Below, in pieces: positions 16,501-64,000 of a stretch of 64,000 nt of DNA (position 1 is its first letter; each line of letters begins with the position of its first letter). The notes below the pieces were generated by a model. That model was not told the DNA's origin, ran no database searches, and was given only the letters and a program-made list of their open reading frames with translations. The position numbers and the translations under genes were made by a program. This DNA comes from Branchiostoma floridae. Lineage: Eukaryota > Chordata > Leptocardii > Amphioxiformes > Branchiostomatidae. Where the stretch lies: assembly GCF_000003815.2 (NCBI RefSeq), contig NC_049988.1, positions 6,414,004-6,478,003 of the forward strand, in the 5' to 3' direction.

Positions 16501-18710
16501 CCCAGGTAGACATTCGCACGTATTGGGGGCCGTGCACGTTCCCAGGTTCAGACACTGTTGTTCACACACCGCTGCGACAGAAAATACGTTCATGAAATAA
16601 TGATTTATCTAAAGTATCGAACGTGTCAAAAAATGATAAAGTTAGAGTTTTTAGGCCGTGGGCAATCTTTTGGGATCCGGAAGTGGTAAGTGCTGCCTCC
16701 GTACGAACTCGTAGGGAATCCGACGGATTTGGGAGAATGAAGACACGCCGTAGAACTTTACGTGCAAGCAAAACTTTGTGTGCCATCGGGCTGCGGATTC
16801 GCCCCCCGTACGTGCCAGTACTGGCGACGCGCCTGCCCTGTACAGCCTGAACGTTTTCAGAAATACATGGCGGACGTGGCCTCACAAAAAAAACGTACGG
16901 ACAAATTTTAGACAAAGAGTACGGGTTGTACTATTAGCTTGAGGTACCCATATTTACACCTGGCTGAAGCAAGAAAAGTCGTGTAAAATGGATACCCGAC
17001 TTTGGTATCAAGTCCCTTTCCCAAGGGCACAACATCGGCCGGTGCCATGTCTGGGGATTCGAACACAGGATGAATAGGTTCTGGGCCAAACAAGCAAACT
17101 ACTGTAAATGTTTTTAAGTTCGCGGGGATTTAATTTCGCGGTAGCGGGAAAAAAAGACTTTTCGCGGTGGATTTAAGTTCGCGGTAACACCATAGACTGC
17201 AATCTAATATCGTTATAGAAAAATGTTCGCGGTGGTTTTAAATTCGCGGTGAAGTGGTCACCGCGAAAACCGCGAACATTAATCCACCGCGAACATTTCT
17301 GCATTTACAGTATTACGTAAACCCGACAGACCAAATGTACACGTGCAAGAAAGAACGCTTATATAAAAATTATCGAGCGTGCCTATATAGTGACACCATT
17401 TCTCTATGAACAAAATGTATACATCAATACCAGCTGTCACTAAACGGTTTGACTCTTACCACGGCAACTCTATTGAAAACAATGCAGTTACCGCAATCTT
17501 TGCAAAGTTATTGAACTTTAATCTTACGGGCAACGTGTGAGGACACTTTTTTGTTGATGTTTCTGATAGTTTTGACATAGTGGTTATTGCCACCTTTGAT
17601 TTTTTTCATCTCGTCGAATTCTTAGTGATGTTTTATGGTGTTATAGATGCCGCCTATGGAAAATGCCTTGTGATATCCAACCTATGTATGTATTACATAC
17701 TGTATCTGTATCTAACAAGTCGCAATTTAATTCCGAAAAAAACAATTTAATTCCGGACTGCGGGTCAATAACTCCAAAATGCTTTACCCAATCAGGTTTA
17801 TCAATTAGCCCTCGGGCAAGAATTTGCAATAAACTTTCTAAACTTTCTTTATTGGGTACATAGTAGGGGGTGCTGAATATGCGGAATTGGTCCCTAGGGA
17901 GAAGTCCAATTATACATATTTATACCAATAATGACAATGCAGTCTTCTATATACTATTGTATTATAGCTCCCGAGTCTCCTCTGTCTTCTTTGCAAATGT
18001 CCTCTTTACAAATATTTCCGAAGAGGGCAGAAGAGACTCGGGAGCTATAATACGGCTGGATACCAGGCTAATATAAAGATATATACAAATCGGCCTATAG
18101 GATCGAGTACCTTTAAATCTGCTGTACTTGATTCGAGAAATGTGAATAACTCATTGCATGAAACAGCGTATCTTGAACATTCTATTACAAAGTGAAATTC
18201 ATCTCCAATATGCTTTGGATAGAATGGGGAAAAGTTCTGTGTTGTCCACGTGTGTCTTATTTCTTGTCAATCATTCAAATGATAGGTGTTCTATCTATCT
18301 ACTCGCATATATATAGTCCTTTCAAACATTTGCCTAAATAGTATGAATCCACAACGGATGTGCCTAAACTATAGTTTATGAAAGCGCAATTTGCTGCGCA
18401 AACAAAGTTATTTTTACTCACGTATGTCGCAGTTTGTCCCGCTCCACCCATCACAACATTGCGCCACGGTCCGCAACATGTCTACTGGCTGGGTTACCGC
18501 TGGCCTGGACGGATGTAAAAAAAAACATTTCTGAACACCATTTTTTGTTTCGTCAAGAGATGGATTGTTTATTCCTTGACAAAAAATGGTGCTGTTCAGT
18601 CGAAAATTTGGGTGGGTCCAATTTTGTGTTGGATATAACAATCAAACTAGTTGAAGAGTCATTTCAAGAGTCAACTTGAGATGTTGATTTGTCGAGCACG
18701 TTAAAGAAGA

Positions 18711-23949: not shown

Positions 23950-24267
23950 TCAGTGATTGTCCCCAAACAGTAACACAAATACCACAAAAGCAATTACACA
24001 TACACCACTTGATAACGTACTAGTAGCGCCGCTGGTAAAACCAGGATCCAATAGTGCCCTGACTTCCTGGATGGTACCGTTGTTCGGTGCCGGGCTGACC
24101 CCGAGGATCTCGCACATCAGAGCGTACAGGTGAACGGAGTCGAACGGGCGAGGGTGCGTGTATCCCCGCCGGAAGGCAGGCCCCTGCGCCCTGAACACGG
24201 CCTTCATCTTCAGGAGAGCGTTGTCGTAACCATGCTGACCGGGAACGTCAATTTGTCCTGGATAAGT
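23950..24267 (-). CDS. ENPP7: ENPP7-like last exon: C-terminus with hydrophobic tail
   Basis: Encodes GQHGYDN (last metal ligand, H346), FRAQGPAF and [15 protein letters not shown], then a Ser/Thr-rich spacer and [17 protein letters not shown] before TGA at 23952-23950. The short polar end after the hydrophobic run suggests a GPI attachment signal or a single membrane anchor. Confidence 0.87.
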   Translation of the reverse strand, partial: TYPGQIDVPGQHGYDNALLKMKAVFRAQGPAFRRGYTHPRPFDSVHLYALMCEILGVSPAPNNGTIQEVRALLDPGFTSGATSTLSSGVCVIAFVVFVLLFGDNH

Positions 24268-25410
24268 CTGTGGATAGAATATGGTTGAGATTGTGAGAAT
24301 TACAGCATTGCCGAGAAAAGTTTACACAAAACATTGTATGAGCGTATGGGGGTTGCCATCTAGATCTATGCATACTGCACGAGAAAAAGAAAGATGTTGC
24401 GTCAACTTTTGAGCACATGTCGAAAGTCATGAAAGTACATAATATATGCTTGGGCAAAGATGAAGAGATTGTGATTATTTTCGTTAGCTTTTGTCACTTT
24501 GGATACTAAGATTAAGCTGAGTTTAATAGAAAGAGATATTTGAATTGTATCCGTAGAAGAAATTCTCAACAATCTATGCTAACCTTTCAATTGAACAACC
24601 AACCGCTTGGGTTGCGGGGATTATCGTAGCCGAGATTTTTCGGGATTGTACTTGCATAGTCTGTTGTGAGGGAAGCGAGCCGGTAAAAAAATCCGGCCAC
24701 TGCGAGGGGTGATCAATAAGTTTTCGGCCGCACCCAGAAATAATAAGCACATCTCAATTTTCGAGGTACAACTTCGTAGTATGGAGCCTTTTGTTATTGG
24801 GTGGGCCGACTACTCACTCTTTGCAGCCAGGGGCTGAATTGCAAGGAGCTTACAATAGGCGGGGCTAAATCGCAAGGGTCTGGAGCGAGCTGCCATTCGG
24901 CGCCACTCAGGTGACCTCAATACGACTGTCGCAAGTGTCTGGAGCGAGCTGCCATTCGGCCCCACTCAGGTGACCTCAATACGACAGTAATTGCCCCAGG
25001 TGCGGCCAAGGTACTGTAGGTTTTGAACCGCTCACACCGCACCATCGCACATGTGGCGGGTTCTTTAACGTGCCCGGGGTATGGCTCTCCCCAGACACGG
25101 GACCTCCATTTAACGTCCTATCCGAGGGACGATACGTCCTGTCCAAGGGATACTTTTATCAATACCCGTGTGACGCAAAGTCTGCCTGCTTGAAGAATAC
25201 AAGACTACTCACCGAATGGATGATGAAACTGGAGTCGGCCAGCGCTATGATGTCAGGTATCCGGGGGTTGTTGGCGAAGTGGAACCGCTCCGGGAAGTCT
25301 TCCTTCAGGTAAACAGTCATGTTGGGGTGACTCGTACGGAGTACGTCGTACACTTCCTAGAGTAAAACATCATAAATACCTTCGTTAGAAAGTGATGTTT
25401 TGAGTAGCGT

Positions 25411-25463
<53 letters not shown>

Positions 25464-28400
25464 TGTGCGTGTGTGCGTGTGTGTGTGTGCGTTTGTGTGT
25501 GTGGCTATGCGTGTGTGCGTGTGTGTGTTCGTTTGTGCGTGTGTGCACGCGCGCGTGTGTGTGTGTGTGTGCGCGCGCGCGCGTGTGTGTGTTCGTTTGT
25601 ATGCGTGCGTGCTGTGTGTTTCAAAATTTTAAACCACCGATTCAATATCTTTCAACGGATATAGGTTACCATTCGGAAAAAGGTGAACTCAAGTTACAAT
25701 GAAGGGTCATATTTCACCTGGAGTTTTCCGTCTTCAGGCTGTATAAGCGCCAGCGGCCCATAGTCCGCTAGTAACAGTCTCAGATCCAACGGGGACACGT
25801 AGCTGTAGATCTCGATGGGATTCGGCACGGGATCCGCCGTGATCATGCCGTGATCTGCCGTCAGGATCACGTTCAGATCACTCAGCTGATCCCGAACTTT
25901 GATCTGATCCACCAGGTAGCCGATGAGCCGATCTGCCTTGCGGATTTCCTCCCGACGGGCGTCGCTGTCTAGTTGAAGACAACGTAGGGTAGGTCAAGAT
26001 GAAGTTTGATACCGTTCGAATGAGTTCGATGTAAATCTAGCGTCTTATCATGGCATTATCTGAGGTGAGATCAGTCATTAGCGCCACCTAGCAGATCGCT
26101 TTATGTTGACAGGCACATATATTACACGTAGATGGTGAATTCAGCACCAAGGACGACGCCCATCTTCACATTTCATTTTTTTCCAAGAGCTCAATGGCAG
26201 ACATATGAATACAATTTGTACTAGATATTCGACTAGACTAAAGGAAAAGGAAATGAAGTAAACAACACAAGACAAAACAAAGAGTTCTAACACAAACATA
26301 CCAGGTCCTTGAGCATGGCATATTTTATCCGGCTGGTTCCAATGGACAGCTACAAAGTCCAAATCATCAACCAAGAACCAGTCAATGATTGTGTCGACTC
26401 TCTTCTGCCACTCAGCTTCGTCAGTTGGAGCACTGCTGTTGGACGTCACATATCTACAAAACAATGAAAAGTGATCGATTGTGAAACTGCAGCAGCTTGC
26501 ACTTGTCATATTTGTCGCTACGGGGCGCTATTGCATTAGCGTTTCTCTCTCTTCTACCATTCAATTTCATTCACTCACTGCTGTTAGGCGTTACACATCT
26601 ATGAAACAGTAAGACCCTCTAGTAAAACATTTAGAGCAACGTAACGTTAATATATTGGTTGCACTTTTTACACACCTCGCTACGTGTCGCTATTGTATCA
26701 GTGTCGCCAGTGACACCTACTACTAGTATACTGTAAATGCATTTAATTTCGCGGGGATTTAATTTCGCGGTAGCGGCAAAATGGACATTTCGCGGTGGAT
26801 TTAATTTCGCGGTAGCGCCATCCCGCGAAATTCAATGCATTTTCAGCACTGCACTGTAGTCACGAACTGCCGTGTAAAACCCGGCGCCTCTACAAACCGC
26901 CAGTCGGAAAACACTTGCTGGTTACCCGGTAAGGGTCCTATACAGACGGATAGAACAGTTTCCATGCTTTTGACTTGTTCTTGCGTGAGCCACTGTTACT
27001 GATCTAATCGTATCTACCCTCTCAATACGTAATAGTATACAGTAGTACGACCTTTGTATCATGGTGAACATACTGTACAGAACTGTAATACAGATGGTCG
27101 TATGAAAAAATTACATGTGTGTCTTCACCGTAGTAAGTATGTCAAACATTTCATTATACAGTGACAAAGACAGTAGTAGTATGTACATGGAGCGGAAAAG
27201 GGGCACCTTAGGCGGCGCCAGCAGACGAAATATTCGCGGTGGATTTAATTTCGCGGTGAAGCGGCCGCCGCGAAAACCGCGAATATTAATCCACCGCGAA
27301 TATTTCTGCATTTACAGTATACCGTGCTTGAACTGCCTACCTGTCCGGTAGCATCCCCTGCATGGGTAGGAAGCCTCCGTAGAACATGTACACTCCTGCC
27401 TTCTTGCCCTGCTTCTTAACCGTGTTCCAAATAGGCTCAGCTCCGTTATCATACCTGTATTACAGTACAGCAAGCACAGAGCGACATTACAAACATAAGC
27501 ATTGTAAACACATCAGGGTTAAATGGATGGATATTCACTTTTATCGGCGGGCTAACGTGACGTTATATCCATTGTTTTAAAAACAGGACATTCCGGCATA
27601 TTAATTTGACGGACCATAGTTTAAAACTTTTGCAATTTTTTGAAAGTTTCATGCACTTAGATAAATAAATATGAAAAGACAATATAGATACCATTCTCTC
27701 ATGTGTTCCGTCTGCTGTGCTGAAAAAGTCACCCCCGTTTCCTTGTCGAAATATTTGTTATGCACAACGCCATGGCTCTCAGGATATAACCCTGTGATTT
27801 ATGGTACAGAAATGAAACTTTTTACAGATCATATTGTGCAACAACAACAACATTTTTAAACAGATGAAAAAATGGGAATGTGTTATTTTACCACTGTTGG
27901 AAGCTCATTTGACCTATTGAATGCAAATCAAGCTTTGTGAGTACTTAATGTTCGATGTTTGGTGTTGTAGTAAATTTAATGCAAAAGATTACACAAAATC
28001 TAATTTACTCTCCCTGAATCAGCATAAACATACATTTAATCACAATACAACCAAAATACAACACGTATATATAGATGTGACTGCAACACTAGTTTTTCTT
28101 CAAAGTGGCGGATTCACACATCCAAACCTGAGCCCGGTTGGACAATTTGCAGAAACGGAAAGTATGATACAAAAGACAATAAAACACACAAGACGAGAAA
28201 AAAAATAGCCTTTGGCATAATTTGTGCATATTTCCTGACAGAAAGTTATATTTAATCCCTACAAACACCCCTGTTGAGCCCCGTTTTGGCAATACAATAA
28301 CCATGAGTTTAAAATAACCCCGCAGTGAATTTTATGACAGTTGACGTCATGAGCTACGTACAGGAAGAACAATCCTTATCACGAAACTCACCCGTTGCTA

Positions 28401-34527: not shown

Positions 34528-37069
34528 CATATAATCCCGGCGTAGCCTACACAAACTGACCCATTTAAGCAACAAATTCGCTTTATAACACATAATACCG
34601 GTGTCGATTCATTCTGACCAATCAGGGGAGCGATACCCACCTTCCTGGCCTGAATCTACGTGTTACGGCGTCATAACCAACGTGGAACGGGGCCTTCTGA
34701 TTGGTCCGCGGCGCCTGGCTATATGATAATATGAGTTACTATGAGTTTGATAAGCGTAATGCGTATATATGTTGAAACTGGTTTAAATGAACAAGATACT
34801 AGTATATTATTACTTTGCTGAAAAGTATTATTCTCAATGATATGCACTGTGTAGTTTGATGAGAAGATGGTGCTTTTGAATGATTTATGAACACAATGAC
34901 CTGGAATGAATTACCATCTGATATACTGATATACTTTGATAAAATGGATACTATTATAATATTAAGTCCTGTTTATTAAATGATTACACCTATGCATCTG
35001 GTTTTTGGTTTTGTAAGAAAATTTAAAAAAATCAAAACTTAAAATTGTGAGGTAAAGCTTAAACCTTAAGTGAGGTGATATGTTATACAGAAAAGCATAA
35101 ATGAAAGAAAGTTACCCTTTTAAAATTAGTAAAAGTTAAGCAAATCTCGGTGCTGTTACGTTACATAGTATTCTGCTACAATTTACAAACATGGACCTTT
35201 TAGGACACGCATTTTTTTTATATTGGTGGATGTGCTTGAATTGCCAGCTGAAATAGATATCATGGTTCACAATTGCATTTTAATGTATTGCAAATAGGAG
35301 CAAACTGCCAGTGTGATCATTTTACCTGAAGTTAACTTTGGGTTGACTTTTCACAGGCCATTTCTTGCCTTTATGCACTATTTGCAAATGCGGATTTTAT
35401 TTTCAAAATTTCAGATTGGAATATGAGCCTGTGTTAGCTTTGAAATGGCATCCTCTGTCCGCGAGTCATATTTGTTGAAGGTTCTACATCATTTGGGCTC
35501 ACACACCAAAAAAGGAGATTTGTAAAGACCACCCCGAATCATTGTCAAACATTGCATGTTATCAAACTAGGTCGGTGACGTCATTACTTCTAACGGTTTT
35601 GGGATTAGATTTGAAAGGAGGATTGAGTAGTATTGACAAACTTTAAGGCTGTCTACATTAGACTTCAGTAGGTTTTAATTCATTATTATAAGTAGTTGCA
35701 TGTGTTAATAGCATAATATGAATAATATGAATTGAAACAGTAACATTAGACTAGTAGTGTAGTAAGAAGATTTATATCATCTTATAGGATTACATTACAT
35801 CAATATACTGTACAAATCAAAACGTGAATGTATAAATGATTGTATAGTAGCAGATTGTTACATATCAAAATCAGTTTGTCATCAATTCCACTGCAGTACC
35901 TTAGAAAACCACAAGGGGCCAATTATTTGTACGTATTGATTCTGAATCATTGCATTACTGTATGGAATCGGTAATATATAGGTCTGAACTTTTGATGACC
36001 CCTCAGTGTGAATGACTCAGATGCTTGGTCCAGTCAGGTTTCATGAACCCCAGCTGTAGAATGTCACTGGACATTTGGGCAAATCATTTCCTAGCCCAAG
36101 ATTACTCCACAGTAACTGATTAGTAAAACCTACCAGGCCTTCTGAAATAGATTCCATGTTTAACAGATAATACTATCATATACATGTAGCTGAGCTATAT
36201 AATGTACTAGGTACATAAAGGTGTTATGTCAATCTACACTGTATTTATGTCCGTTATAAGACGAGCTATTAGCTAAGGTTTTTATTTGGTTTGTGTGTGG
36301 CGGGTTCTTTAGATTTTTTTGGACTTAGCCAATACCAAAGTTGCATGCTCTCTAGTTAGGAGGGGCTTGGAAAATTATAAAAATCCAACCCTGTAATTGG
36401 TATTTCCTACGTTTTGGAGATAATTTCAAAGTGAAAAGGAGAAAGAAGACTGTCGATAGCAGCGCTGTCAAGAGAGGATTCATTGATTATTTTTTTTTTA
36501 TACATTCAAGTGTGTGTGTGTGTGTCTGTGGTTGTCCAAACTCCCCCTCCTATGGGCACAATATAGGAAGGCAGAGCCCATATGCATCCCTCTCCTTTTA
36601 ACTCAGCCTTTCAGTATCACCATTTTTGGTACCTGGGTGATGTGAGGAAAATCGTGTTAGAGTGCCTTTCCCAAAGATACTTCATTTTTGTATGAGTCAA
36701 ACCTTGGATAAAGAATTTGGTAATGACACACATTGGAGTCTTAACTTACTAATTAATAGGAACAACCTACAGGTTGTTGACCTTTCTTGACCCTGGAAAG
36801 GAAATGATGTCATCATAGCTGTCAGTACTTCAGAGGGATAAAACGGCATTCTTTTGTGAGGACAGGAAGTAATGTTTGTACCAACAAAGTTTCAACCTAC
36901 AGGGCGTTTGAAACCTTAATGCACTTGTCAAATTGAATGTAAATTATTGCAATGGGTCATTGTCCTCTATATTGCTATTCAGGTTAACATTCAACATTTT
37001 CATTGACATAATACCGCCACATGAAGAAACAATGTTTGTTATAGGGACTTTTAAGATTTTGGTCAGTCC
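34528..37069. other. Spacer with no recognisable gene
   Basis: AT-rich. Contains a repeat piece at 34620-34735 shared with 31090-31160, a short (TG)n at 36512-36525 and a SINE tail at 36610-36690 (ACCTGGGTGATGTGAGGAAA, CGTGTTAGAGTG). The last few hundred bases may be 5' sequence of the retroelement that follows, but no boundary is visible. Confidence 0.55.
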
Positions 37070-40009
37070 ATGTGCACAGTGATTATGTCCATGGGGGCAG
37101 AACGATTTGGCACGATTGGGAAGAGGAAACCGACAGACACAATGAAGCCAAATCGCCGGGAAGTAAAGATCCGTCAACTGAGGCAGGAGCTAAAGTCGTT
37201 GAGGCGGAGCTTTAAGGCGAGTACGTCGGGAGAGGAGAGAGCTGCTCTTGCAGAGCTCACACACCACCTTAGGGAGAAGCTTAGGACCCTCAGAAGGGCA
37301 GAGTGGCACAAGAAGAAGGGTAAAGAAAGAGCCCGGAAGCGCAGTGCTTTCATCACCAACCCTTTCGGCTTCACCAAGCGACTCCTAGGGCAGAAGAGGA
37401 GTGGGAACCTGACCTGCCCAGTCGAGGAGATCAACCTCCACCTCAGCAATACCTTCAGTGATGCCTCGAGAGATGTGGATCTTGGTCCTTGCCCTTTGCT
37501 GGTGACTTCACCTGAGCCGGAAGTGCACTTTGACATCTCTGAACCAACTCTGAAGGAGGTCAGAGAGACAGTCAAGGCGGCGAGGTCCAGTTCGGCACCA
37601 GGTCCCAGTGGCGTGGTATACAAGGTCTACAAACATTGCCCACGGCTTGTGGTGCGCCTCTGGAGGATCCTAAAGGTGGTCTGGCGCAGAGGTAAAGTGG
37701 CGGCTGATTGGAGGCAAGCCGAGGGGGTTTGGATCCCAAAGGAAGAGGAGTCAAGTAAGGTAGACCAGTTCCGCTTAATTTCTCTGCTCAGTGTTGAGGG
37801 AAAGATCTTCTTCAAGATTGTGGCCCAGCGTCTAATAAAGTACCTTCTGGACAACCAGTACATTGACACATCTGTGCAGAAGGGGGGAGTTCCTGGTGTC
37901 CCAGGATGTCTTGAACACACGGGCGTAGTGACCCAGCTCATCCGGGAGGCTAAGGAGAACAGAGGGGACTTGGCAGTCTTGTGGCTGGATCTCGCGAATG
38001 CGTATGGTTCGATCCCCCACAAGCTTGTGGAAACAGCACTGACCAGACACCATGTTCCAGAGTCAATTCAGAACCTCATCTTAGATTACTACAGCAACTT
38101 CTGGCTAAGAGCTGGCTCCAGTACAGCAACTTCAGCATGGCAACGGTTAGAGAAGGGCATCATTACTGGATGTACGATTTCAGTGCCCCTCTTTGCACTA
38201 GCGATGAACATGATTGTTAAAGGAGCGGAAGCAGGATGTAGGGGTCCCGTGTCTAGGTCTGGAACCAGGCAGCCGCCGATTCGAGCCTTCATGGACGATC
38301 TGACAGTGATGACTGCAACAGTCCCGGTGTGTAGATGGCTCCTACAGGGATTAGAGCGTCTCATTACATGGGCACGGATGAGTTTCAAGCCGGCCAAGTC
38401 AAGATCTCTTGTCCTGAAGAAGGGGAAGGTGGCTGAAAGGTTCCGTTTCACCCTGGGAGGCACTCAGATTCCCACAGTGTCAGAGAAACCAGTCAAGAGT
38501 CTGGGCAAGGTGTTCAGCAGCTCTCTGAAGGACACCGCTTCAGTTCAGCAGACTAGGAGTGACCTGACAACGTGGCTCGAGGGAATTGACAAGACAGGGC
38601 TACCTGGTAGCTTCAAGGCCTGGATGTTCCAGCATGGAGTCTTGCCAAGGGTACTCTGGCCTCTTCTTGTGTACGAGGTGCCGATGACCATGGTGGAGCA
38701 ACTGGAGAGAACCATCAGCAGGTTCCTTCGCAAATGGTTGGGGCTCCCGAGGTCCTTAAGCAACATTGCCCTGTACGGTAGATCCACCAAGCTGCAGCTT
38801 CCCTTGAGTGGCCTGACTGAAGAGTTCAAGGTTACCCGTGCAAGAGAAGTGTTGATGTACCGGGACTCCTCAGACTCCAAGGTCTCTTCAGCCGGCATCC
38901 ATGTCAGGACTGGAAGAAAATGGAAGGCACAGGAAGCAGTGGATCAGGCAGAGGCAAGGTTGAGACACAGTGTCCTCGTGGGGTCCGTGGCAGTAGGACG
39001 GGCAGGACTGGGCAGCTGCCCAAAGCCTCGGTACGACAAAGTCAGCGGGAAGGAGAAGCGTCTACTGATCCAGGATGAGATAAGGGCTGGGGAAGAAGAG
39101 GATCGGCGATGCAGGATGGTAGGCATGCGCAAGCAAGGTGCGTGGACTAGGTGGGAACATGCTGACTCCCGCAAGGTCACATGGCCAGAGTTGTGCAGAG
39201 CTGAGCCTTCTCGGATCAAANNNNNNNNNNNNNNNNNNNNNNNNNNNNNNNNNNNNNNNNNNNNNNNNNNNNNNNNNNNNNNNNNNNNNNNNNNNNNNNN
39301 NNNNNNNNNNNNNNNNNNNNNNNNNNNNNNNNNNNNNNNNNNNNNNNNNNNNNNNNNNNNNNNNNNNNNNNNNNNNNNNNNNNNNNNNNNNNNNNNNNNN
39401 NNNNNNNNNNNNNNNNNNNNNNNNNNNNNNNNNNNNNNNNNNNNNNNNNNNNNNNNNNNNNNNNNNNNNNNNNNNNNNNNNNNNNNNNNNNNNNNNNNNN
39501 NNNNNNNNNNNNNNNNNNNNNNNNNNNNNNNNNNNNNNNNNNNNNNNNNNNNNNNNNNNNNNNNNNNNNNNNNNNNNNNNNNNNNNNNNNNNNNNNNNNN
39601 NNNNNNNNNNNNNNNNNNNNNNNNNNNNNNNNNNNNNNNNNNNNNNNNNNNNNNNNNNCTGCTGGAGCTAACTGTTCCCTGGGAGGAGCGGATAAGCGAA
39701 GCCAACGAGCGGAAGAGGGCGAAGTATGCCGAACTGGTAGTACAAAGCCAGAGTAATGGGTGGAGAGCCCGGTGTGTACCAGTGGAGGTTGGTTGCCGGG
39801 GTTTCGCAGGGCAGTCTTTGGCTTATGTGTTAAAACTCCTTGGAGTAAGAGGCTTCCGTCTTCGGAAATCCATCAGGGATATTCTAGAGGCTGCGGAGAA
39901 AGCCTCACGTTGGTTGTGGTTCCGTAGGGGGGAACCGTGGAAGCCACACGGACACAGGTCGGGGAATGATCAACCTCGGCTGGGTCGCCCGGGCGAGGGT
40001 GTATGGTGA
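37070..40009 (+). mobile_element. Retroelement ORF with reverse transcriptase domain (gap inside)
   Basis: A 979-codon frame, counting 146 codons of N. The N-terminus is basic (KKKGKERARKR) with NPFGFTKRLLGQKRSG. RT motifs run in order: APGPSGVVYKVYK, WIPKEEESSKVDQFRLISLL, motif A WLDLANAYGSIPH (D307), motif B TGCTISVPLF, motif C FMDDLTV (D409, D410), then SLGKVF. All three catalytic aspartates are kept. The order and spacing suggest a non-LTR-type (LINE) RT. The C-terminal piece (LTVPWEERISEANERKRAKY) resembles the part of restriction-like endonucleases found downstream of RT in R2-type elements, but the gap removes the key region. An in-frame TAA lies 18 bases upstream of the first ATG and no N-terminal nuclease or zinc finger is seen, so the copy is probably 5'-truncated. 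Codon use is GC-richer than surroundings. Confidence 0.8.
39221..39658. other. Assembly gap (438 N) inside the retroelement ORF
   Basis: 438 is divisible by three, so the frame reads through, but continuity of the real sequence is unverified. Confidence 0.99.
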
Positions 40010-53100: not shown

Positions 53101-56100
53101 TGTGTTTTTGGTGTGTGTTAATTGAGTGCGGTGGTACATGTAGCTTGATAATATATTTATGATGCTTGTTAGTGATTATGGTTTCTACAAAACTGTCTAC
53201 TCAGTAGTATGATTCACAATATTAGATAGTCTTGCTTTGTGGATCAACTTAGCCAACATAGAATAATGGCATTGATACATATGGGTATTGTTTTGTTATG
53301 AATCATAGAAATTTCTTTTGAGAGGATGTTGCACACACAATCACATGTACACATCTGCTTATAATAACTAATATTAGAATTTATAATTGACAGTAGGATT
53401 GCAAATGATTGTCAAAAGCCCTGGCATTCACTAAGACTGATACATCGAATAGTTTGATAGAAGGTTGTTGATTGACAGATGAAAACACATTTGATTGACA
53501 CCACAACTGTTGGATCAGTACATTTTCCCAAAGACATGTGATATTTCTTTTGAATTAATATAAAAAATACAAGAAAAACAGATACTATAGTAGGGCAACA
53601 ACTCATATACAGTTTTTGTACAGCATTGAAATTTGTCAATGAAGTTTACTATTTCATATAAAGGGAAAAAATTATACATGAATGATGTAATTTTGGAAAT
53701 GACACCCCTTTTCAGTTATGGTACCTCCGAGTGATCTCAAATGATGTCATGACAATGTCACTGAGGTTGAAGGCTTGCAGACCACAGCTATTAATGGTAA
53801 ACTTAATAACGATAATTTATGATTACTAAATATTCAAATATTTGCTGAATTTACATCTGGCAATAGAAATGAGAATGCAGACCATGCCACTCACTCACAA
53901 ATTATTTTTTGTGGCAATTGAACCAAAATAATTTTTGTACTTTGAATACTAGTATTGCTATGCTTTGTGTCACAGTACAGTGACGTATATAATTATGTAA
54001 AACAGTATATTGCTGTCAAAAATATCTTAAGCAATCATTTATAATCCTGAGACTGGGGTTTGTGAAGTTTAAGTGTCGGGTTAGATAAACAAACCTTAGG
54101 TTTGGAATCACAAGAATGGCGATAGAAACAGGTCAAGCACTTTATCTTTTGTAGTGGTGACGTGTATTGGAGGGCTGACTGTAGCAACATGTGCATGTTT
54201 GTTGTAACTGAAAAAGCAAACTCACACACTGGTAGAGTAAGTAGACATCTAACGGTTGCCTTAAGTTTGCAGAAGTCGATCATATCCTGGTTAACATTAT
54301 TGTATACAGCAACAAAATGCTGTACAGTTGTTTGCTTATACAGTCAAACCTGCCCAAAATGACCACCCGGGGGACCGGAAAAAAACGGTCGATTTGGACA
54401 GGTGGTCGCTGAGAAGAGTATCGACTCAAAACATGCCCGATGCAAAGTATAAATGGTTGCCGTTGTGTTTAATGGCAAATAGCAAGCACACTGCACGCAC
54501 GCAAAGAAGCAAGGTCTTTAATGTCAAATACAACACGCACACTGTAAACTGTAAATTTAACCCCAAAATCCGACGCAAACTGGCCGATTTCGGCACAAAA
54601 TCGCGCTAATTATCATAAAAAATCGATGAAAACCTCAATCTTGAAAATGATGCGGTCGTCATAGGTCCCAACTTGAGCCGGTCGCGGTCGCGTTGGCCAG
54701 GTGGTTGTTGAGAAAAGGTCGCTTAATGCTTACGTCAATGGGAAAATAAATCGGGACCGAGAAAAAGCGGTCGAAATGGCCAGGTGGTCGCTCGGGCAGG
54801 TTTGACTGTATGTTTTCTTTCACACTCTAAAGTTGTTGTTTGACACTAAACAGACACATATCTCCCACTTACTTAGTCTTTGAATGAAATGTAGTGTATT
54901 CTGTAAGGAAAGTTTGTGATCGAATCTTAGGTCATTTTGGTCTTGAGAATTTTTATTTGAAAAGGAAGTTATGCAATTTGTAGACTCATTTTGCATATTT
55001 ATCTTTATAGCATGTCGCAAAATCGTCACTGCATGGGATGCCTATGGGATGCCTTAAGACATCTGTTGTATCTCAAGAAGCTTTCCATTACTCTTAAGAT
55101 TTACATCAAGCTGACACACTGTGTATATTCTGTCACTGTGCCTTCCCTCAGAAAGACTCAAAGTCCAGCAAGTTTGGATCTTCAGGACTGTGTTCTGCAT
55201 TTGACCGGAATTCTCGTTAAATCGGCTTTGCTTTCTGTAGATTGCAGAGGTACTCTTGCAGCAGTTTCAAAGTCTTTGTCAAGCTGTTTCACAGACTTCT
55301 CCACTTCTGATAACTTAAAGGCTTCTGGTTCTTCTTTTGAAGCCCCTGGACGTCAAACTTGTTTGGGTTAGGGTCTCCAGACATCTTGCTTCTTTCTTGA
55401 AGATCCCTCCTGTTGTGCGACTGTGCGGACTTCTTCCTTGAACTCAAGATCTGTCAAAGATACTTTTATTTTTCTAAGGAGGCATTTTTCTCGCAGTCCC
55501 GCCACCACAAGTGAGTGAGAGTTCAACGTTGACAGTTCTGTTGGCATTCTTGAGAAACAGACTTTCTTATCGAAGACAGCAAGAAGACAGTTTCTTTCTT
55601 GAAGCAACCGAAGTCACAGTTCAACAACCGATTCACCGTTCTGACTGCTTGTGAGAAATACTCTCTTACCAAAGAAGACAACGAAGACAACTTTCTTGGA
55701 GCAATTCAAACACTGCACCATGTTTTCGGACTACCAACTAGCCGGTCGCGAACTCTTGGGACCGTGGAGTTACTACCGCTACGATCCTTTCCCCGTGCGG
55801 CCCCGGGCGGATGATGATGATGACCACGACAATTTCCTTCTAGGTTGACACTGCTTGAGGACTCTATTTGCATCAACTGAAGATAACTAATTACTAATTC
55901 AGTATACAGTTTTAACATTACCTTGACTAGAAGGTTGATGAAATACGGAGTCATGCATGGGTTAATTCTTTTACCTAAATTGTAAATGGTAAATGCTTTG
56001 AAGGAATGCTTTGTGAAGTGTAGTTCTGTTTTTGATATCTTAAACTGTTACAGCTCAGTTAGAAGAAGTTTAGCAACATAGTGTTAACGTTGCCATCAAG

Positions 56101-59100
56101 ACATGCTTGTTAGCTATAGAGGGAAAATTGCCAATGTTATGATGCTGTTGCCTATTGACTTGCAAATTGTTTCAAAAGTTATAATAATTATTGCAAGCTG
56201 AACAAACTTTACAGTGCAGAATTAGATTTATTGTAGTACTGTAATGGAATTGCATATTTAGTTAAAATGAATGGAATGCTAATTGAGCTAATAAAACTAA
56301 ATAGAATGCTAAACTGCTTCTTTAAGCAGTCCAAAATTTGCTTGAAGACTAAAAAACAAATTGAATGAAGTAGCTCTTGTGAGCTTCAGTGTCTGTTTCA
56401 TTAAAAGCTTGTTGACATTGGCAGCACGTAGTTGCAAGTATAACAGTTACTGCAAAATTAATGTGATCCATGGTATTCTGAATGCAGTCAGGTTTTCCTT
56501 ATTTTTATTGGCATTTTCATTCTTCCATTCATCCATCTCTCCTTCTTTCCATCTTTTATCATTCCATCATTGCCACTCATATGTCTTATAATTCTAATTC
56601 TTCAATTGCCACTTATGAATTTTCTTTTTCTTGTCTAATGTAGAGGGAATCACCGAAGCACCACCTGATTACTACGATGTCGCTGTTGTGAACGGGAAAA
56701 ACAAAAATGGAGCGGCTGCCCCTGTATCTGCTGACACCATCATTCCTGTGGAAAAAGACAAGGAGGGAGAGTGAGCATACTGTGCTTCATTTCCATAGAC
56801 TGTCAATCACAATTAGCAGTTCAACCAATGATAGCATGGCAATTAACTGCAGCGACCAATGAGAGAGTGACTGCATGTCTGTTGAAATATTTACCTTTCT
56901 TATGTTTTCATTTTGCATTCAAATGTTTTGACAGAATTTGGCTGAGCTTTGGAATTGGATATCAGTCATGTAAATTCAAGCTATACATTTCAATTTCAGT
57001 AACGTGTTTTCAAACTAAGTTTTTTTACTTTAATTGGCTGTTCTAAATTCAACCTTAATGTACAATCATATAGGTTTGAAATTCTTTTTAGTTACTTAAT
57101 GGCTTTTTATTATAATTCTGCATTTTCAGTGATAATTCATTTTTTTTTCAGGAAAAAGGAAGGAGAGGATGAGGAAAAGAAGAAAGAAGATGATGTGAAA
57201 CCAATTGGTGTCTTCGAAGTTGTAAGTTCAAGTCTGCATTTTGAAGTTTTTCTAGCCATTTTTATTGACGAATATCTATTTTCTGTATTTGGTGATCTTC
57301 AAGTGATCAATTACAATCATGTACAGGTAATATCAAAAGTTTGAAAGTAATCTAAAGAACTTCAGAAGGTTTGTGATACTCTTACATTAATTGCTGGCAT
57401 TCTAAACTTTATTTTATGTTATTCACCCCAAATTCTGTCTGTGCACCTATATTATTGTGTTAGGTACATGTACACCTGTGCACGAAAAAGTTTGAGCCCT
57501 GGTTGCGAGTTTCTGATTAGGCGTTATTTGATTGTCTTTACTGTGATAAATTCAAAACTGAAGTGTGATTCTAGTTTTCAAGAATCATTTGAATCACCTA
57601 GTAACCACTCCCTCTCCCCAGTGGAAGTTTGCGGACAAACTAGACATCTTCTTTATCATCCTGGGCACCATCTCAGCCATAGGGCTGGGCGTTACCCTCC
57701 CCCTCATGATCATTGTGTTTGGCGACACGCTGGACGGATTCGTCAAGGGTTCGCTCGCCGGCATCAATGTGACCGACGGCCAGTTCGCGAATGTGTCGGA
57801 AATCAGCGGCATTGATGTTAACATGCTGTGAGTTGTTGATAGGTGCTTGTATTGTTGTGGTGACTGCACTAGTTAATGGTAATGCTTTGGAGGGAATGTT
57901 ATTTCAGTGGGAAATTTGACACCAATTTTGCACAATGGTAATTGAAAAGCCTAACAGCTTTCAAAATTATCTCTTATCCCAATTGTTTAAAATCTTTTCA
58001 AGTCAAAATTCATATTTGTCTGGTTGAAGATCTATAATTTGATTCTTCGTATTTGCAATTTTCAAAATACATCATGAAAAGTCTTAATTTAAAGACTTAC
58101 ATTTCATGTAAAAGAAATTTGTAACTGTATTCAAAAACAGTACATATTCAAAAATTAGACTGATTTTTAATAATGATGACATTTTCTTCATTAGATATCC
58201 ACAAACCCTCCAAAGCATCATCACGACACACTATTTTGCAGCAGGTGGTTTGGTGACCTCTGACCTCACAAGTGCTACTGGTGTCTCACTAACACTTGAT
58301 ATCTAACCTTTTAACCTTTCCTCTGACCTTGTCTTTTGTGTTTTCTGCTTCTCTCCTCTCTGCACAGTTCCGTTTTGCCGACGGGTGGGACATTTGTCTC
58401 ATACTCCTCGGCTCTCTCCTATCCATTGGTCTGGGGATCACTTTTCCGCTAATGATAATCGTTTTCGGGGACACAACGACGTCCTTCGTGTCCAGCGAAC
58501 TGGCCAGCGAACTAGAAGAAATGCTGAGATGTTTCGGAAACCTTATTCCGAACATAACCTCGGGCGCGCTACCGCCCAATATCGAACAGTACCTGCCACC
58601 AAATTGTACCCACCTGTTGCCGATGTTGAACGCATCGTCCGAGAACCTTGCTACGGGTTCAATCAGTGGAATTAGCATTGCTGACCTGCAGTAAGTTTGA
58701 AATCATTTTTGTTTTCAAAAACAAAAATTAGGACAATTACAGGATCATGAAATTTCCCAATTCTGATCAATGCTGACTAGACTCATCTTTTATTTTGTCA
58801 CAAATTATGATTTTTCATCTATTAAGTCCATTAAACATGATCTCAAACAATTGTTATTAATATTTTTTTAATGAAATAGTATCATTCTATCTTGACAAAG
58901 TTTCTAGATTTTTCTTCAATTTACCCCAAAAAAAGGATTTACAGCAAGTCAATCTTGCCTTAATCTTTTTCATTCAATGTATAATTTAAAAAAAATACAA
59001 ATTGTATGTATAATATCTGTCAGTCAAGTTGCATTTAAATCATAATCATCAAAATTATAATTTTTTCAATCTTTCAGTTCACTCAATCCTTTTAAAGTCA

Positions 59101-62100
59101 GATACTTCAACTTCCTGAATACAAGTTAGATATAGCACTCTTCATATAGTGATCTACTCAATTTCTCTCTATATAGTAAATTCATCATTGTCATTATCAT
59201 ACTAAACTCACTCTACTCTCTTGATTACACTAATAAGTGATTAATGTTGGTGGCACACTAATTTGCCACAGTTGTTTTTTCTTTTGCCAATTGATTGAAA
59301 GTTATATGATTGTTAGGTGTTTGTTTCATGTTGTTGTTGACAAAGCTTAATAATACTAATTCAATGTACAGTGTCTTTATCACAAATAAATAACATAGTG
59401 TTAGATATGATGATATGTAATGGTGGCTCATACTACAATTTGATAAATATGCAATAATGTCAGAATGTACATTTTAAAGCTTGACGTTGGTTTAAATGTT
59501 AAGAGCATGTACAATGCAAATTTTGCAAAAATTGTCCAACAATAGCTTAACCTTTAAGGGACCCGGTGTATAATTTTTTCCTCTCTATGACAGACAAGGC
59601 ATTGACATTGAGGGCCAAATGACGACGTATGCCTACTACTACGTGGCGATCGCCTGTGGGGCGTTCGTCTGCGCGTACGGACAGGTGGCCTTCTGGACGC
59701 TGTCTGCCACTCGTCAGGTCAACCGCATCAGGACCAAGTTCTTCCGCGCCATCATGCGGCAGGACGTCGGATGGCACGATACCCACGCGACCGGGGAATT
59801 CAGCACCAGGCTGGCTGAGTATGTCTAATACACCAATGTATAATATCTTGTACAATAGGGTCACAGTGCCACCTAGTGGTGAGGAGTCATTACTGCAGCA
59901 AGATTCAGAGGGACACTACAGATTCTGAAACAGATACTTTTAGTGTTTATCTAAGGATAAAGTGGCTGCTGCCTTTCTTATGGTAATACCGACTTCTCTC
60001 CAGTAGATGGCGCTGCAGCACAGGTACTAATCAATTGGTCTTGGTTGCCCCAAATAATAACTGAGTGTAGCATATGATCCATTGAGTAAAAAATTATAAA
60101 CCTCATTGAAAGTATTCACCAGTCATTTTTATGTTTTACATAACTTACTGGTAAAAATGGCCATATTACATCTAATTCACAAAGATACAGATTGAAGAAG
60201 AAACTGATTTTCTTAAGAACAATTCTGCCTATCTAATAGTATGACAAAAACTTTTATAAAACATGTTTATAATTGAGTAAATCAATGAATGAATCCCGTT
60301 GCATAATTACATTTTGAAATCATTTTCATGCAATGCCTAGCCGAATGGTATAATAATAATAAGCACTGTGCGAGTTGCTTGGCAAAAGGCAAATTACTGC
60401 ATGGGAGGGAAACATCCTGCATTTCCCCGAAAATGTTGCCTTTTTAGCTTTACAACTGCTATTTTATTTTCAGTGATGTGAACAAGATAAACGAGGGGAT
60501 CTCGGACAAGTGCGGGATCTTCCTGCAGTGGTTCACGGCGTTCATCGCGGGGTTTGTGATCGGGTTCATCTACGGTTGGAAGATGGCCCTGGTCATCATG
60601 GCCGTCAGTCCGCTGCTGGGTATCGTGGCTTTCCTCATGACAAAGGTACGAGTGATTCATTTACATTTTGTAATTATCACAGTGTATGATTTTAAAATTT
60701 GATTGGAACATTTGACCAATCGCTTATGTCACATACATAGTATGTATAATTATGCAAGATCACTTGTCAATAAGGCCAAGACTTACATTTTGTAGTTAGT
60801 GTAATTCTTGTTCTCTGTTCATTTTGTTTGTTGAGAAGAGCTCTAGATTGGGAAATTACTTTGATGTAATAAACATCATTAACTAGCCAATTGATTCTAT
60901 TCCTGGGGCAAAAACTTTGACGTGAAAAAAACAATACTTGTTTTAATTAGTAATGGATAATGAATGGCAGGTAGGCAGGCATAATGAATGAGGAATGGAT
61001 GACTTGTTTTAGTAATAAATTTGGCAACAAGCAGTAATTTGCTGTCAGACTGGTTTAATAGGTCTCAATAGTAAAAATACTAAAATTGTTTAACTGTAAC
61101 AGTAATACTAACTAGCTGTATAATTCCTGCAACACTAGATGGCCTCTGCTTTCACCGAGGATGAACAGGCTGCGTACGCCAAAGCCGGAGGTGTCGCAGA
61201 AGAGGTTCTCTCGTCCATGCGAACAGTTGCTGCCTTTGGAGGAGAAAAGAAGGAAGAAAAGAGGTACAAAATTATGTGTGAAATCTCAGTCTGTTTAGCC
61301 AGAGTACCATCCTACATAGTGACCGCTGGCTCAATCCTTTCCATGCATGGTTAGCGATCAAAAGTGTTGAGCCAGCGGTCACTATACAGAACGATACTCA
61401 TTTTATCTTGAGTCTGTTGTCCTATATGTTGTGTCTTTGGGTAAGCACTTTGCATGACTTTCCTCACTCCACCCAGATGTAGAAATGGGTACCTGACTTC
61501 GGTTAGGGAGGTAAAAGGTGGTGGATGGAGAGGGTTGGGCTTCTGCCTTGCAATGTCATGCGTGCCCTAAACACAGTGGATAACAACGGTTACCTACTAC
61601 CTCACAGTGTCGGAAAGGCTAATTGGGAATTTTACAATCTAGATTGTACATTTTGAATAGATATGTATGATGTTTTAAAAGTGTGATTGATATCATTTCT
61701 AGGTACAACGTGCATCTGGTGGAAGCCATGCGTATGGGAGTGAAGAAAGCGATCTCCGCTGGCGCGGGAATGGGCGTAACGTTCCTCGTGATGTTTGGCG
61801 TGTACGCGCTGGCCTTCTGGTATGGCTCGGACCGCGTACGAGCAGGAGAGTACACTCCTGGAGGTTTTCTGATCGTAAGTCTGACTCTTATGCCCGTTAT
61901 GGTTAAATTAACTTTTATTAAATGGTTAAATTAATTTATTAAGTTAAAAGAAAATAAAAGAAAAAAACTATTTATCCCTTTTCTTCTAAGGATGTCTTTT
62001 TGTGCAAAATTTGTATTAGTTCCAAATTTAGTTAGAAGAGAGAATATCATGATCATGTTGTGCCCATTTACAATATTAGGACAAGTTTTCTTGATTGTGA

Positions 62101-63541
62101 TTGTGATTGTTATGTGATTTTATCAAAGTTTTATACATAAACTCGAATTTTGCTGAAACATTTTCTAGAGTTGATCACCTGTTCTTTCCTACGATTGCTA
62201 CAGACGTTCTTCTGCGTGGTGATTGGTGCCATGTCCCTGGGCCAGGCTGCACCAAACATCGAGTCCTTTGCGAAAGCGAAAGGTGCCGCTGCGTTCGTGT
62301 ACAGTGTCATAGACAATGTAAGTTCAAAGTTTTTCCTTTTAAGAATTCTGCTCTGAAAGAAGCTGTTTGAAAATGGTCCATATTCGACTCTACATGCCTG
62401 TAGCAGGTCTGTAGCTAGAAAATGCATTAATCAACTTGTCAAGAGAAGAATAGTAGTCTAGCTGCAGTTTTCAACATTGTTGATAGGGGGCACTGCTGAT
62501 TAGCACATGATACAGTTACTGTATTACTTCAGTCCTATGAAGGATTCTTGGATCCCACAATGTACATATTAGTCTGGGTTTGTTAATTTTTCCTTAATTT
62601 GATTATCTGAGTGTATGATGTTATGTTTCTAGCTACTGTTAATGGTAAAATTTCTTTTCCAAGAGGTTTGTTGACTTGAACTAAATCTCGTTTGCATTTT
62701 GATTGGTTGTTCAGGAACCAGTGATTGACAGCCTGTCGGAGGAGGGTCACAGACCCGACAGCTTGAAGGGCAACATAGAGTTTAAAGACGTCAACTTCAC
62801 GTACCCAGCTCGTCCAGACGTTCCAGTAGGTCACAATACGTCATATTTTGCTTTCTTTCGCTTTGTGACATATCATGATTTTGAAATTCTATCAATTATA
62901 CTATAGGGGCAATGTCAGAGTCTTTAGATATGTCAAAAATTTCTCCAAATATCAAAACTAAAAGTTGCAGTTGTTTACAGTGCAAACATATATCATATTC
63001 AGAAATCTTTCCTGTCACAACAAAAAGTACAGCAACTTTCATTAGGTTTATTACATTACTACGTACAGTACATATAAACAGACAAGTGTATACAAATGCA
63101 TTATGTAATCTAATGTTTGATAAGTTGAATTTTAAGGAATGGATTTTTTGCTGTGCAAGACTTACATGATTGTATCGTCTTTAAGTTTGTGGTTACAAAG
63201 TTTTAGTTACCTAAGTTTGAAAAAAAATGTGTACAAACTCTGGCTGGATAGATTGGTTTCATATTTGGTGTGGTGGTTTGGGCCCCTTAGCAGCTTCTCA
63301 TGGTACTGCAGCTTAACGTTTAATATATTGTGTTCTGAACAAGCTATGGTCATGATGTTTGGGTGTTTAATAGCTCTTGTTGGTACTGATTTTGTTGTTG
63401 CGATCTCATTACCAGGTGCTGCAGGGCTTGAGTCTGAAGGCTGATGTTGGCCAGACTGTGGCGCTGGTCGGGTCCAGTGGCTGTGGGAAAAGTACCACGG
63501 TTCAGCTCATTCAGCGCTTCTACGACCCACAGGAGGGAGTG
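50112..63541 (+). CDS. ABCB1: ABCB1/P-glycoprotein-like ABC transporter, 5' part (13 exons including alternatives)
   Basis: Exons: 50112-50166, 52220-52303 (cassette), 56644-56770, 57152-57221, 57622-57827 or 58368-58690 (alternatives), 59594-59818, 60474-60645, 61139-61263, 61703-61874, 62204-62317, 62715-62825, 63416-63541. All junctions are AG/GT and in phase. Encodes about 501 or 540 codons without the cassette: acidic cytosolic N-terminus, TM1 to TM6 of the first membrane domain, then the start of the first nucleotide-binding domain with A-loop Tyr ([10 protein letters not shown]) and Walker [10 protein letters not shown]. Landmarks such as [29 protein letters not shown] and [13 protein letters not shown] are typical of full-size ABCB exporters (family length about 1280 aa). 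The protein should sit in the plasma membrane and export lipophilic compounds using ATP. The signature motif, Walker B and the second half lie beyond the window. ABCB4 or ABCB11 cannot be excluded. Confidence 0.9.
50787..51558. mobile_element. MITE with CAGGGCTCGAAAT termini, interrupted
   Basis: Ends CAGGGCTCGAAAT and ATTTCGAGCCCTG are exact inverted repeats. Subterminal GGGTGCACC blocks occur on both sides. hAT-like by its CAGGG end, but no clear 8-bp duplication is visible. Interrupted by the element at 51005-51426. Confidence 0.8.
51005..51426. mobile_element. hAT-type MITE with 8-bp target duplication
   Basis: Ends TAGGGCTGGGTATCGGTAC and GTACCGGTACCCAGCCCTA. Flanked on both sides by ATGTATAC (50997-51004 and 51427-51434), the 8-bp duplication typical of hAT transposons. 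Interior has repeated GGACCTG blocks and no ORF of note. Confidence 0.88.
52220..52303 (+). CDS. ABCB1: ABCB cassette exon, 84 nt (28 codons), probably alternatively spliced
   Basis: A long pyrimidine tract (CCTCCTTTTTTTCC region) ends in GGCAG at 52219. The exon reads [19 protein letters not shown] and MPSVEVP, and ends CCC G|GTGTGT. Phase 1 in and 1 out matches both neighbours, so it can be included or skipped without changing frame. It is GC-richer than its surroundings. Ser/Pro-rich, it would lengthen the cytosolic N-terminus. The flanking long introns 50167-52219 and 52304-56643 carry mobile elements. Confidence 0.65.
52304..54340 (+). other. ABCB intron sequence without recognisable features
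   Basis: AT-rich intron DNA. 52550-52900 has two loosely repeated TTTGACCTTTTTTGCTCA / TTTGGCTTTTTTCCTT-like stretches. No exon could be supported. Confidence 0.5.
54341..54808. mobile_element. Tc1/mariner-type MITE (CAGTCAAACCTG termini, TA duplication)
   Basis: CAGTCAAACCTGCCC at the left and GGGCAGGTTTGACTG at the right, each flanked by TA. Subterminal GGTGGTCGC blocks are inverted too. No transposase frame. In an ABCB intron. Confidence 0.85.
55720..55848 (+). CDS. Possible alternative first exon of ABCB, or short upstream ORF (42 codons)
   Basis: ATG at 55720 opens [20 protein letters not shown] and an acidic [14 protein letters not shown] end before TGA at 55846. The stretch is GC-richer than its neighbourhood. 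A weak donor CTAG|GTTGAC at 55843 would leave in phase 1, which fits the exon at 56644. No proof of expression. Confidence 0.3.
   Translation: MFSDYQLAGRELLGPWSYYRYDPFPVRPRADDDDDHDNFLLG
56644..57221 (+). CDS. ABCB1: ABCB exons: acidic/basic cytosolic N-terminus
   Basis: 56644-56770 encodes [18 protein letters not shown] and on to VEKDKEGE. 57152-57221 encodes [20 protein letters not shown] then FEV, ending GTT|GTAAGT in phase 0. Highly charged, as in other ABCB N-termini before TM1. Confidence 0.85.
57622..57827 (+). CDS. ABCB1: ABCB alternative exon A: TM1 and short extracellular loop 1
   Basis: 206 nt, phase 0 to phase 2. Encodes [17 protein letters not shown]1 through PLMIIVFGD, then a short loop with two N-glycosylation sequons (NVT, NVS). 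Acceptor CCCCAG, donor CT|GTGAGT. Aligns with exon B over the FADxxDI...GLG(V/I)T(L/F)[10 protein letters not shown] stretch. Confidence 0.85.
58368..58690 (+). CDS. ABCB1: ABCB alternative exon B: TM1 and long extracellular loop 1
   Basis: 323 nt, phase 0 to phase 2. Encodes [17 protein letters not shown]1 through [10 protein letters not shown], then a loop about 39 residues longer than in exon A, with two cysteines and three sequons (NIT, NCT, NAS). Acceptor TCTGCACAG, donor CA|GTAAGT. Because phases equal those of exon A, using both or neither would break the frame. Confidence 0.85.
59594..60645 (+). CDS. ABCB1: ABCB exons: TM2 to TM4 region
   Basis: 59594-59818 encodes [16 protein letters not shown] then TM2 and the intracellular helix [14 protein letters not shown]. 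60474-60645 encodes [21 protein letters not shown]3-TM4 and FLMTK. Junctions: CT or CA + A CAA; GA + T GTG. Confidence 0.9.
61139..62317 (+). CDS. ABCB1: ABCB exons: intracellular loop 2, TM5 and TM6
   Basis: 61139-61263 encodes [20 protein letters not shown] and [13 protein letters not shown]. 61703-61874 encodes [20 protein letters not shown]5 and AFWYGSD. 62204-62317 encodes [20 protein letters not shown] and VYSVIDN (TM6). The intron 61264-61702 holds an inverted repeat and a SINE. Confidence 0.9.
61315..61387. repeat. Short inverted repeat (~19-bp arms)
   Basis: ATAGTGACCGCTGGCTCA at 61316 and TGAGCCAGCGGTCACTAT ending at 61386. Hairpin within the ABCB intron directly after the exon ending at 61263. 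Confidence 0.82.
61440..61595 (+). repeat. SINE copy, sense orientation
   Basis: GACTTTCCTCACTCCACCCA then GATGTAGAAATGGGTACCTG and GGTTAGGGAGGTAAAAGGTG. Same tail as the antisense copies at 8284-8449 and 16940. Intronic in ABCB. Confidence 0.65.
62715..63541 (+). CDS. ABCB1: ABCB exons: first nucleotide-binding domain, start
   Basis: 62715-62825 encodes [18 protein letters not shown] with the A-loop tyrosine. 63416-63541 encodes [19 protein letters not shown], Walker A SSGCGKST and [10 protein letters not shown], then GTGCGT. The rest of the domain is outside the window. Confidence 0.92.
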
Positions 63542-63769
63542 GTGCGTTTTCATTTCATTCATCATTTATCAAAACATAATTATGAACTTATGTTTGGGTC
63601 GATAGTGTACTGTTAATATGTGGTTTTAATGGCGGAGTGGCTGGTTGATACCTTGGCAAAAATGGTGTGAAATGCAGCCCTTAAATGCTTGAAATTTTAC
63701 TGCTGCTGTACTGTAGCATTAGTGACAACTGCCATGTTAATTTCACAGTTAAAATAGCTGTCCAAGATA

Positions 63770-63977
63770 CTGTAAATGCATTTAAGTTTGTGGGGAGTTA
63801 ATGTCACGGAAGCGTGAGAAATGACTTTTCGCGGTGGTTTTAAGTTCGCGGTAGCACCATGCACTGTAGTCTCTTACTGCCATGGAAAAATGTTTGTGGT
63901 AGTTTTAAATTCGCAGTGAAGCGACCAGCGCAAAAACTGCAAACATTAAACCAACGCGAAAGTTTCTGCATTTACAG
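63770..63977. mobile_element. Tc1/mariner-type MITE (CTGTAAATGCA)
   Basis: TA-CTGTAAATGCATTTAAG at left and TTCTGCATTTACAG-TA at right. Interior TTCGCGGTGGTTTTAAG and ATTCGCAGTGAAGCG. Copy of the element at 17100. In the ABCB intron after the Walker A exon. Confidence 0.82.
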
Positions 63978-64000
63978 TACCTCTACCATGCTGTCAAAAT

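Follow-up and report, generated by a model that had tools for sequence, protein, structure and literature searches.

Two pairs of tandem-duplicated, apparently mutually exclusive exons in an ABCB1/ABCB4-like transporter gene of the amphioxus Branchiostoma floridae

Introduction

Pumps of the P-glycoprotein type are usually studied as single proteins of broad specificity. The Drosophila MRP gene, an insect member of the ABCC family, carries two clusters of alternative exons in the membrane domains of one transporter. Tandem exon substitutions have likewise diversified an ABC transporter gene in the case of ABCC9, in human as well as in the fly and worm orthologues (PMC9741552), and the MDR-type pump MDR49 of Drosophila has isoforms that differ in their membrane domains and in their effect on resistance (PMC4802207). 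Here we analyze a 64,000-nucleotide stretch of the Branchiostoma floridae genome (RefSeq assembly GCF_000003815.2, contig NC_049988.1, forward strand; C10:6414004-6478003 in our contig numbering), which we call the window. It contains the 5' part of a gene for an ABCB exporter of drugs or lipids, including two adjacent exons, A and B, that each encode the first transmembrane helix (TM1). We propose, with a probability of roughly 0.85, that this single ABCB1/ABCB4-like gene bears two clusters of tandem-duplicated, mutually exclusive internal exons, which would yield up to four isoforms. The locus shares with tandem mutually exclusive exons in general (PMC3228551, PMC5740500) adjacent homologous internal exons, equal phases, a frame broken by inclusion of both or of neither and, in one of its pairs, a very short intron.

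Results

A single ABCB locus

The gene was read from the window together with the 30 kb beyond its end (94 kb in all); coordinates above 64000 continue past the window, where segment L003 starts at 64001 and segment L004 at 74001. The spliced model has GT-AG at every modelled intron and 29 intervals, and its coding span runs from 55720 to a stop codon ending at 80964, in one locus that reaches the second nucleotide-binding domain (NBD). Combining A or B with either member of a second pair, C or D, gives four full-length open isoforms of 1347 or 1386 residues with no internal stop. Pfam, applied to the A/D protein as the sole form scanned, recognizes two ABC_membrane and two ABC_tran stretches in this protein, which thus has the alternation of transmembrane domain (TMD) and NBD, TMD-NBD-TMD-NBD, of a P-glycoprotein-like full transporter of the ABCB family. 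For the stretches searched, the nearest solved relatives are ABCB1 and ABCB4, followed by the bile salt export pump. On this similarity ranking, the locus is one ABCB1/ABCB4-like full transporter gene.

Exons A and B: TM1 and the first extracellular loop

An initial annotation of this DNA had described A and B as a tandem pair exchanging TM1 and the loop behind it. Its coordinates for A (206 nucleotides (nt)) and B (323 nt) are correct (Table 1), as are its splice sites and phases: both exons are preceded by AG and followed by GT, and both run from phase 0 to phase 2. The intron between them exists as described, with 540 bases rather than 541. A new copy of 3501 bases around the two exons, fetched from the genome, is identical to the window. 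The annotation held that the reading frame enforces a choice of one of two, and this is what we find. With A alone or B alone, the modelled N-terminal half stays open for 524 and 563 codons, respectively, to 63541, whereas A and B together (529 nt) lead to a stop after residue 203 and the omission of both leads to one after residue 110. The annotation had also considered that the exons might come from two separate genes; because the modelled gene is a single locus through the second NBD, A and B do not seem to belong to two genes.

The predicted homology of the two TM1 segments is borne out, with 23 of 36 residues identical in an ungapped alignment, a value reached by none of 100,000 residue shuffles. 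The exons diverge in the first extracellular loop that follows TM1. Counted after FGDT, the loop has 32 residues in A and 71 in B; the sizes of about 25 and 64 claimed earlier were too small, while the difference of 39 residues stands. Its contents are as annotated: the loop of A has two sequons (NVT and NVS) and no Cys, and that of B has three (NIT, NCT, and NAS) and two Cys, with one more Cys in TM1 of exon B. The exchange of loop and sequons had been read as a switch of the glycosylated outer face. The exchange itself holds; its restriction to the outer face does not, since TM1 also changes at a position aligned with the human drug cavity.

Exons C and D: TM12 and the linker to the second NBD

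Matching the protein of the gene against the 94 kb revealed a second tandem pair outside the window. C and D both encode the twelfth transmembrane helix (TM12) and the linker to the second NBD, are both 157 nt long, and have matching phases and GT-AG sites; they are identical at 41 of 52 residues and 116 of 157 bases. Inclusion of both leads to a stop after residue 1112, and omission of both to one after residue 1066 (computed with exon A), so that the frame enforces the choice in both pairs.

None of the 29 intervals in the model is shorter than the 69 nt between C and D; the second shortest measures 191. Sixteen of the 19 adenosines between C and D lie no more than 41 nt from the 5' splice site, and the remaining three lie within 10 nt of the 3' splice site. 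Steric exclusion is reported for branch points within about 50 nt of the 5' splice site (PMC5740500; PMC7969005), a spacing seen in 57 human clusters, or 9% (PMC5740500). Given these positions, a working branch point would probably crowd the donor of C. An intron of 69 nt can scarcely accommodate the usual branch-point spacing, and joining of C to D is therefore probably sterically hindered, as far as adenosine positions indicate the branch point.

When compared with the criteria for mutually exclusive exons in PMC3228551, both A/B and C/D show matching phases with compatible splice sites and sequence homology (for A/B, in TM1). Length similarity is exact for C/D and is partial for A/B, in which the excess of B lies in the outer loop and surpasses the 20-residue limit of a human scan; the length criterion of PMC3228551 tolerates such an outer-loop excess in part.

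Predicted consequences for the protein

The central-cavity residues tabulated in PMC11017244 include L65 and M68 of TM1 and F983, M986, A987, and Q990 of TM12, and a simulated ligand contacts Q990 (PMC8745603). In ungapped alignments, human L65 of TM1 corresponds to Leu in A and to Phe in B, and human Q990 of TM12 corresponds to Glu in C and to Gln in D, where D is read in the same ungapped frame as C. The residues at M68, F983, M986, and A987 are identical between the members of their pair, and most differences within A/B and within C/D fall outside the listed cavity residues. As for the loop, human ABCB1 has a short one with three sequons in the aligned stretch; the Cys-less loop of A resembles it, and the two-Cys loop of B resembles that of an amphioxus paralog described below. 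We infer the effect of exon choice on transport from these alignments.

Age and constraint

Over the 36 aligned TM1 codons of A and B, the proportions of synonymous and nonsynonymous differences (pS and pN) are 0.90 and 0.216, with a bootstrapped pN/pS of 0.24 (95% 0.12-0.39). Over the 52 codons of C and D, pS is 0.72 and pN 0.117, with a bootstrapped pN/pS of 0.16 (0.08-0.27). Judged by these codons, both duplications are old and amino acid replacement has been restrained. Saturated (A/B) or nearly saturated (C/D) silent sites together with low pN/pS argue against an artefact or collapsed recent duplicate and against a decaying exon. The chance that a neutral sequence with the base composition of the A-B intron would lack a stop is 0.010 for A, 0.0007 for B, 0.03 for C, and 0.03 for D; with the exons' own compositions, it is 0.063, 0.012, 0.100, and 0.082, respectively. 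Given the latter values, the open frames by themselves add little except in the case of B.

A paralog and the search for further copies

The one close ABCB paralog that we found lies on the same contig at about 15.997-16.021 Mb (L015-L018, C10:15983001-16023000), about 9.5 Mb from the gene. It has one TM1 exon and one TM12 exon, and some of its exons were matched weakly or not found by tblastn. As in A and B, the TM1 exon of the paralog has phase 0 at its start, which falls at the matching residue, and phase 2 at its end; this exon frame therefore probably predates the duplication. In the first loop of the paralog there are two Cys, the second of them within an NCT as in B, and three sequons; on the evidence of this one paralog, B may keep the older type of loop. 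Either the paralog has lost its duplicate exons, or the duplications occurred only in this gene.

Genome-wide searches covered 513,431,437 bases in 431 contigs and scored the best candidates only, so that more distant ABCB genes may be missed. Among the candidates scored, exon A had two matches with E of 0.001 or less, each within this locus, and exon B had two with E of 10 or less, namely A and B. Exon D had four with E of 10 or less: itself, C, the paralog, and the gene's own TM6 exon (E 1.85). For the TM2 exon there were six at E up to 10, two of them below 1e-10 (this gene and the paralog) and four at E 0.2 to 2.6. A tblastn search of the four spliced isoforms against the 94 kb gave no convincing match outside the modelled exons (best E 3.6).

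RNA structure in the A-B intron

A strong stem is predicted within the A-B intron, between the two arms listed in Table 1, and it was reached by none of 200 shuffles. The entire intron is predicted to fold more stably than 98 of 100 shuffled sequences (z -2.70). Its predicted fold has 51 long-range pairs, which include sequence beside the donor of A and a TTTTAAC stretch, a possible branch point for B, and in this fold the donor side of A is placed opposite the possible branch-point stretch. This fold and its pairings come from a single genome sequence, without covariation, and no full second copy of the arm regions was found in the 94 kb examined. We also considered 58200-58223 as a selector with two partners and rejected it: outside its own intron it fails, its best match in intron 3-A being equaled by 85 of 500 shuffles and that in intron B-5 by 420 of 500. 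The stem may be a lead, and we do not use it as a mechanism.

Coordinates and other features of the locus

The features of the gene are collected in Table 1. The donor of the proposed first coding exon (GTTGAC) is the weakest of 29, and the real protein start may lie elsewhere. By eye, a possible microexon of 15 nt can be read at L003:4475-4489, with AG before it and GT after it, in the cytoplasmic linker between the halves; it would add five residues in frame.

Table 1. Positions of the modelled exons and of the stem arms in the A-B intron
Feature	Position	Strand	Basis or remark
Putative first coding exon, with ATG (tentative)	55720..55843	+	donor ranked last of 29
Coding exon 2, cytoplasmic N-terminus	56644..56770	+	spliced model
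Coding exon 3, ends in phase 0; upstream partner common to A and B	57152..57221	+	spliced model
Exon A: TM1 and short Cys-less first extracellular loop, 2 sequons, phase 0 to 2, Leu at human ABCB1 L65 position	57622..57827	+	
5' arm of A-B intron stem	57877..57899	+	0/200 shuffles
3' arm of A-B intron stem	58201..58223	+	0/200 shuffles
Exon B: TM1 and long two-Cys first extracellular loop, 3 sequons, phase 0 to 2, Phe at human ABCB1 L65 position	58368..58690	+	
Downstream exon common to A and B (TM2), accepts phase 2	59594..59818	+	spliced model
TMD1 exon	60474..60645	+	spliced model
TMD1 exon	61139..61263	+	spliced model
TMD1 exon	61703..61874	+	spliced model
TM6 exon, first-half counterpart of C/D; no second copy seen	62204..62317	+	spliced model, similarity searches
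TMD1-NBD1 linker exon	62715..62825	+	spliced model
NBD1 exon with Walker A; gene runs on beyond the window	63416..63541	+	spliced model
Exon C, TM12/linker, 157 nt	76260-76416 (L004:2260-2416)		beyond the window
Exon D, TM12/linker, 157 nt	76486-76642 (L004:2486-2642)		beyond the window

A dispersed repeat of about 220 bases occurs at 63750-63990, 17100-17312, L004:1931-2146, and elsewhere, with one copy just upstream of exon C; in the 94 kb there are seven further blastn rows of at least 90 bases as well as shorter ones. Elsewhere in the window, an open frame of 722 residues (37055-39220) runs into a run of N (39221-39658), in a region that by eye looks retrotransposon-like. Two open frames on the minus strand, 23953-24321 and 26144-26527, resemble by eye pieces of an ectonucleotide pyrophosphatase-like gene. 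Scans of the window for Rfam families and tRNAs gave no matches.

Discussion

Under the proposed arrangement, each mRNA would carry A or B, and C or D, giving up to four pumps. For C/D, the adenosines likely to serve as branch points, no more than 41 nt from the 5' splice site of C, would hinder joining of C to D, with the frame and the decay of wrong products backing up this steric block. For A/B, no such block is expected at 540 nt, a distant branch point being possible there, and exclusivity would rest on the frame, decay of wrong products, and regulated choice. Choosing B over A would put a long outer loop with two Cys and three sequons in place of a short one that lacks Cys, and would turn Leu into Phe at the L65 position; choosing D over C would place Gln instead of Glu at the Q990 position. 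Both choices would be expected to tune the substrate range and the surface of the pump. A broader proposal is that these are two independent splice switches in opposite halves of the transporter, each altering one drug-cavity residue, so that the specificity of a multidrug pump is programmed by splicing instead of by gene duplication. We offer it tentatively and would put it at somewhat under even odds.

Several observations weigh against the proposed arrangement. Competing RNA pairing of the docking/selector kind, which the initial annotation had suggested looking for, was sought among introns 3-A, A-B, and B-5, and nothing above chance emerged: the best ungapped pairings were matched by 55, 79, and 28 of 200 dinucleotide shuffles. 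The length difference between A and B is above the usual. In the C-D intron, the three adenosines within 10 nt of the 3' splice site leave room for a branch point there. Human ABCB4 has His at the Q990 position; known pumps thus differ in this residue, and its exchange may be without effect. The pN/pS values compare two exons with each other and do not tell apart which lineage was constrained most recently. Both pairs are known from one amphioxus species, and the joining of each exon is predicted from genomic sequence.

Weak splice sites bear on the possibility that only one exon of each pair is used, its partner being a relic of constrained appearance or an isoform made very rarely. The acceptors of A and C rank 28th and 27th of 29, and the donor of D ranks 25th of 29, in a profile built from the gene's own sites, which is small and T-rich and may undervalue C-rich tracts; with such sites, one member of a pair could be rare. 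We nevertheless regard this explanation as improbable, given the saturated or near-saturated synonymous sites and the pN/pS of both pairs, along with frames that are open and GT-AG sites that are intact in all four exons. The two wrong combinations stop early in both pairs, as would suit a deliberate off-switch in which inclusion of both or neither lowers the pump through mRNA decay and the choice between copies is secondary. Reads joining exons whose lengths are not divisible by three have been recorded for 83 (22%) of 377 human clusters (PMC5740500). Such a switch seems very unlikely here, however, since C-D joining looks sterically hindered and since the copies keep distinct, constrained proteins that an off-switch does not need.

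The annotation had also named a collapsed tandem gene duplicate among the findings that would count against it, and an assembly artefact, in which the second copies stem from another gene or haplotype, belongs with this. Amphioxus genomes are highly polymorphic, and a second, close ABCB gene lies on the same contig. Yet that paralog is about 9.5 Mb away and has different, single TM1 and TM12 exons, and no convincing extra copies of other exons were found in the 94 kb. Synonymous sites that are saturated (A/B) or nearly so (C/D), in exons whose protein is constrained, speak strongly against a recent collapse, and we consider this the least credible of the explanations. Mutually exclusive use of two exon pairs in one gene is the reading that we prefer.

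If the isoforms are made, they would provide a natural set of four matched pumps with which to determine the cavity residues and the outer loop that govern the choice of substrate. A non-vertebrate chordate seems to hold, in one gene, alternative versions of two helices that line the cavity of its human relative, and each pair has apparently persisted until its silent sites were saturated or close to saturation. The variable loop is also the one with the N-glycan sequons.

Exchange of tandem-duplicated exons is already well known, ABCC9 included, and we found none for ABCB in the literature searched. That search, on amphioxus ABC transporters or P-glycoprotein and on mutually exclusive exons, turned up neither such exons in an ABCB gene nor this gene, mostly from titles and the starts of abstracts and with most subscription journals outside its reach. 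The case in PMC9741552 concerns ABCC rather than ABCB, a name that does not occur in its main text as searched. As a general rule in that paper, predicted ligand-binding residues are for the most part conserved (80.6%); here, by contrast, each pair alters one aligned cavity residue. The two reported forms of MDR49 differ by omission of the first four exons and not by exon exchange (PMC4802207). The intron geometry of C/D is similar to that of exons 4a/4b of OGDH (PMC7969005); OGDH is an enzyme, not a pump, and its branch points were mapped, whereas those of C/D are deduced from adenosine positions. The human scan used a length window of 20 residues (PMC5740500); since B exceeds A by 39 codons, a scan of this design would probably miss A/B. 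The amphioxus gene deserves more than ordinary interest: both of its switches fall on aligned cavity positions of a multidrug-type pump, and its two pairs seem to use different means of exclusion.
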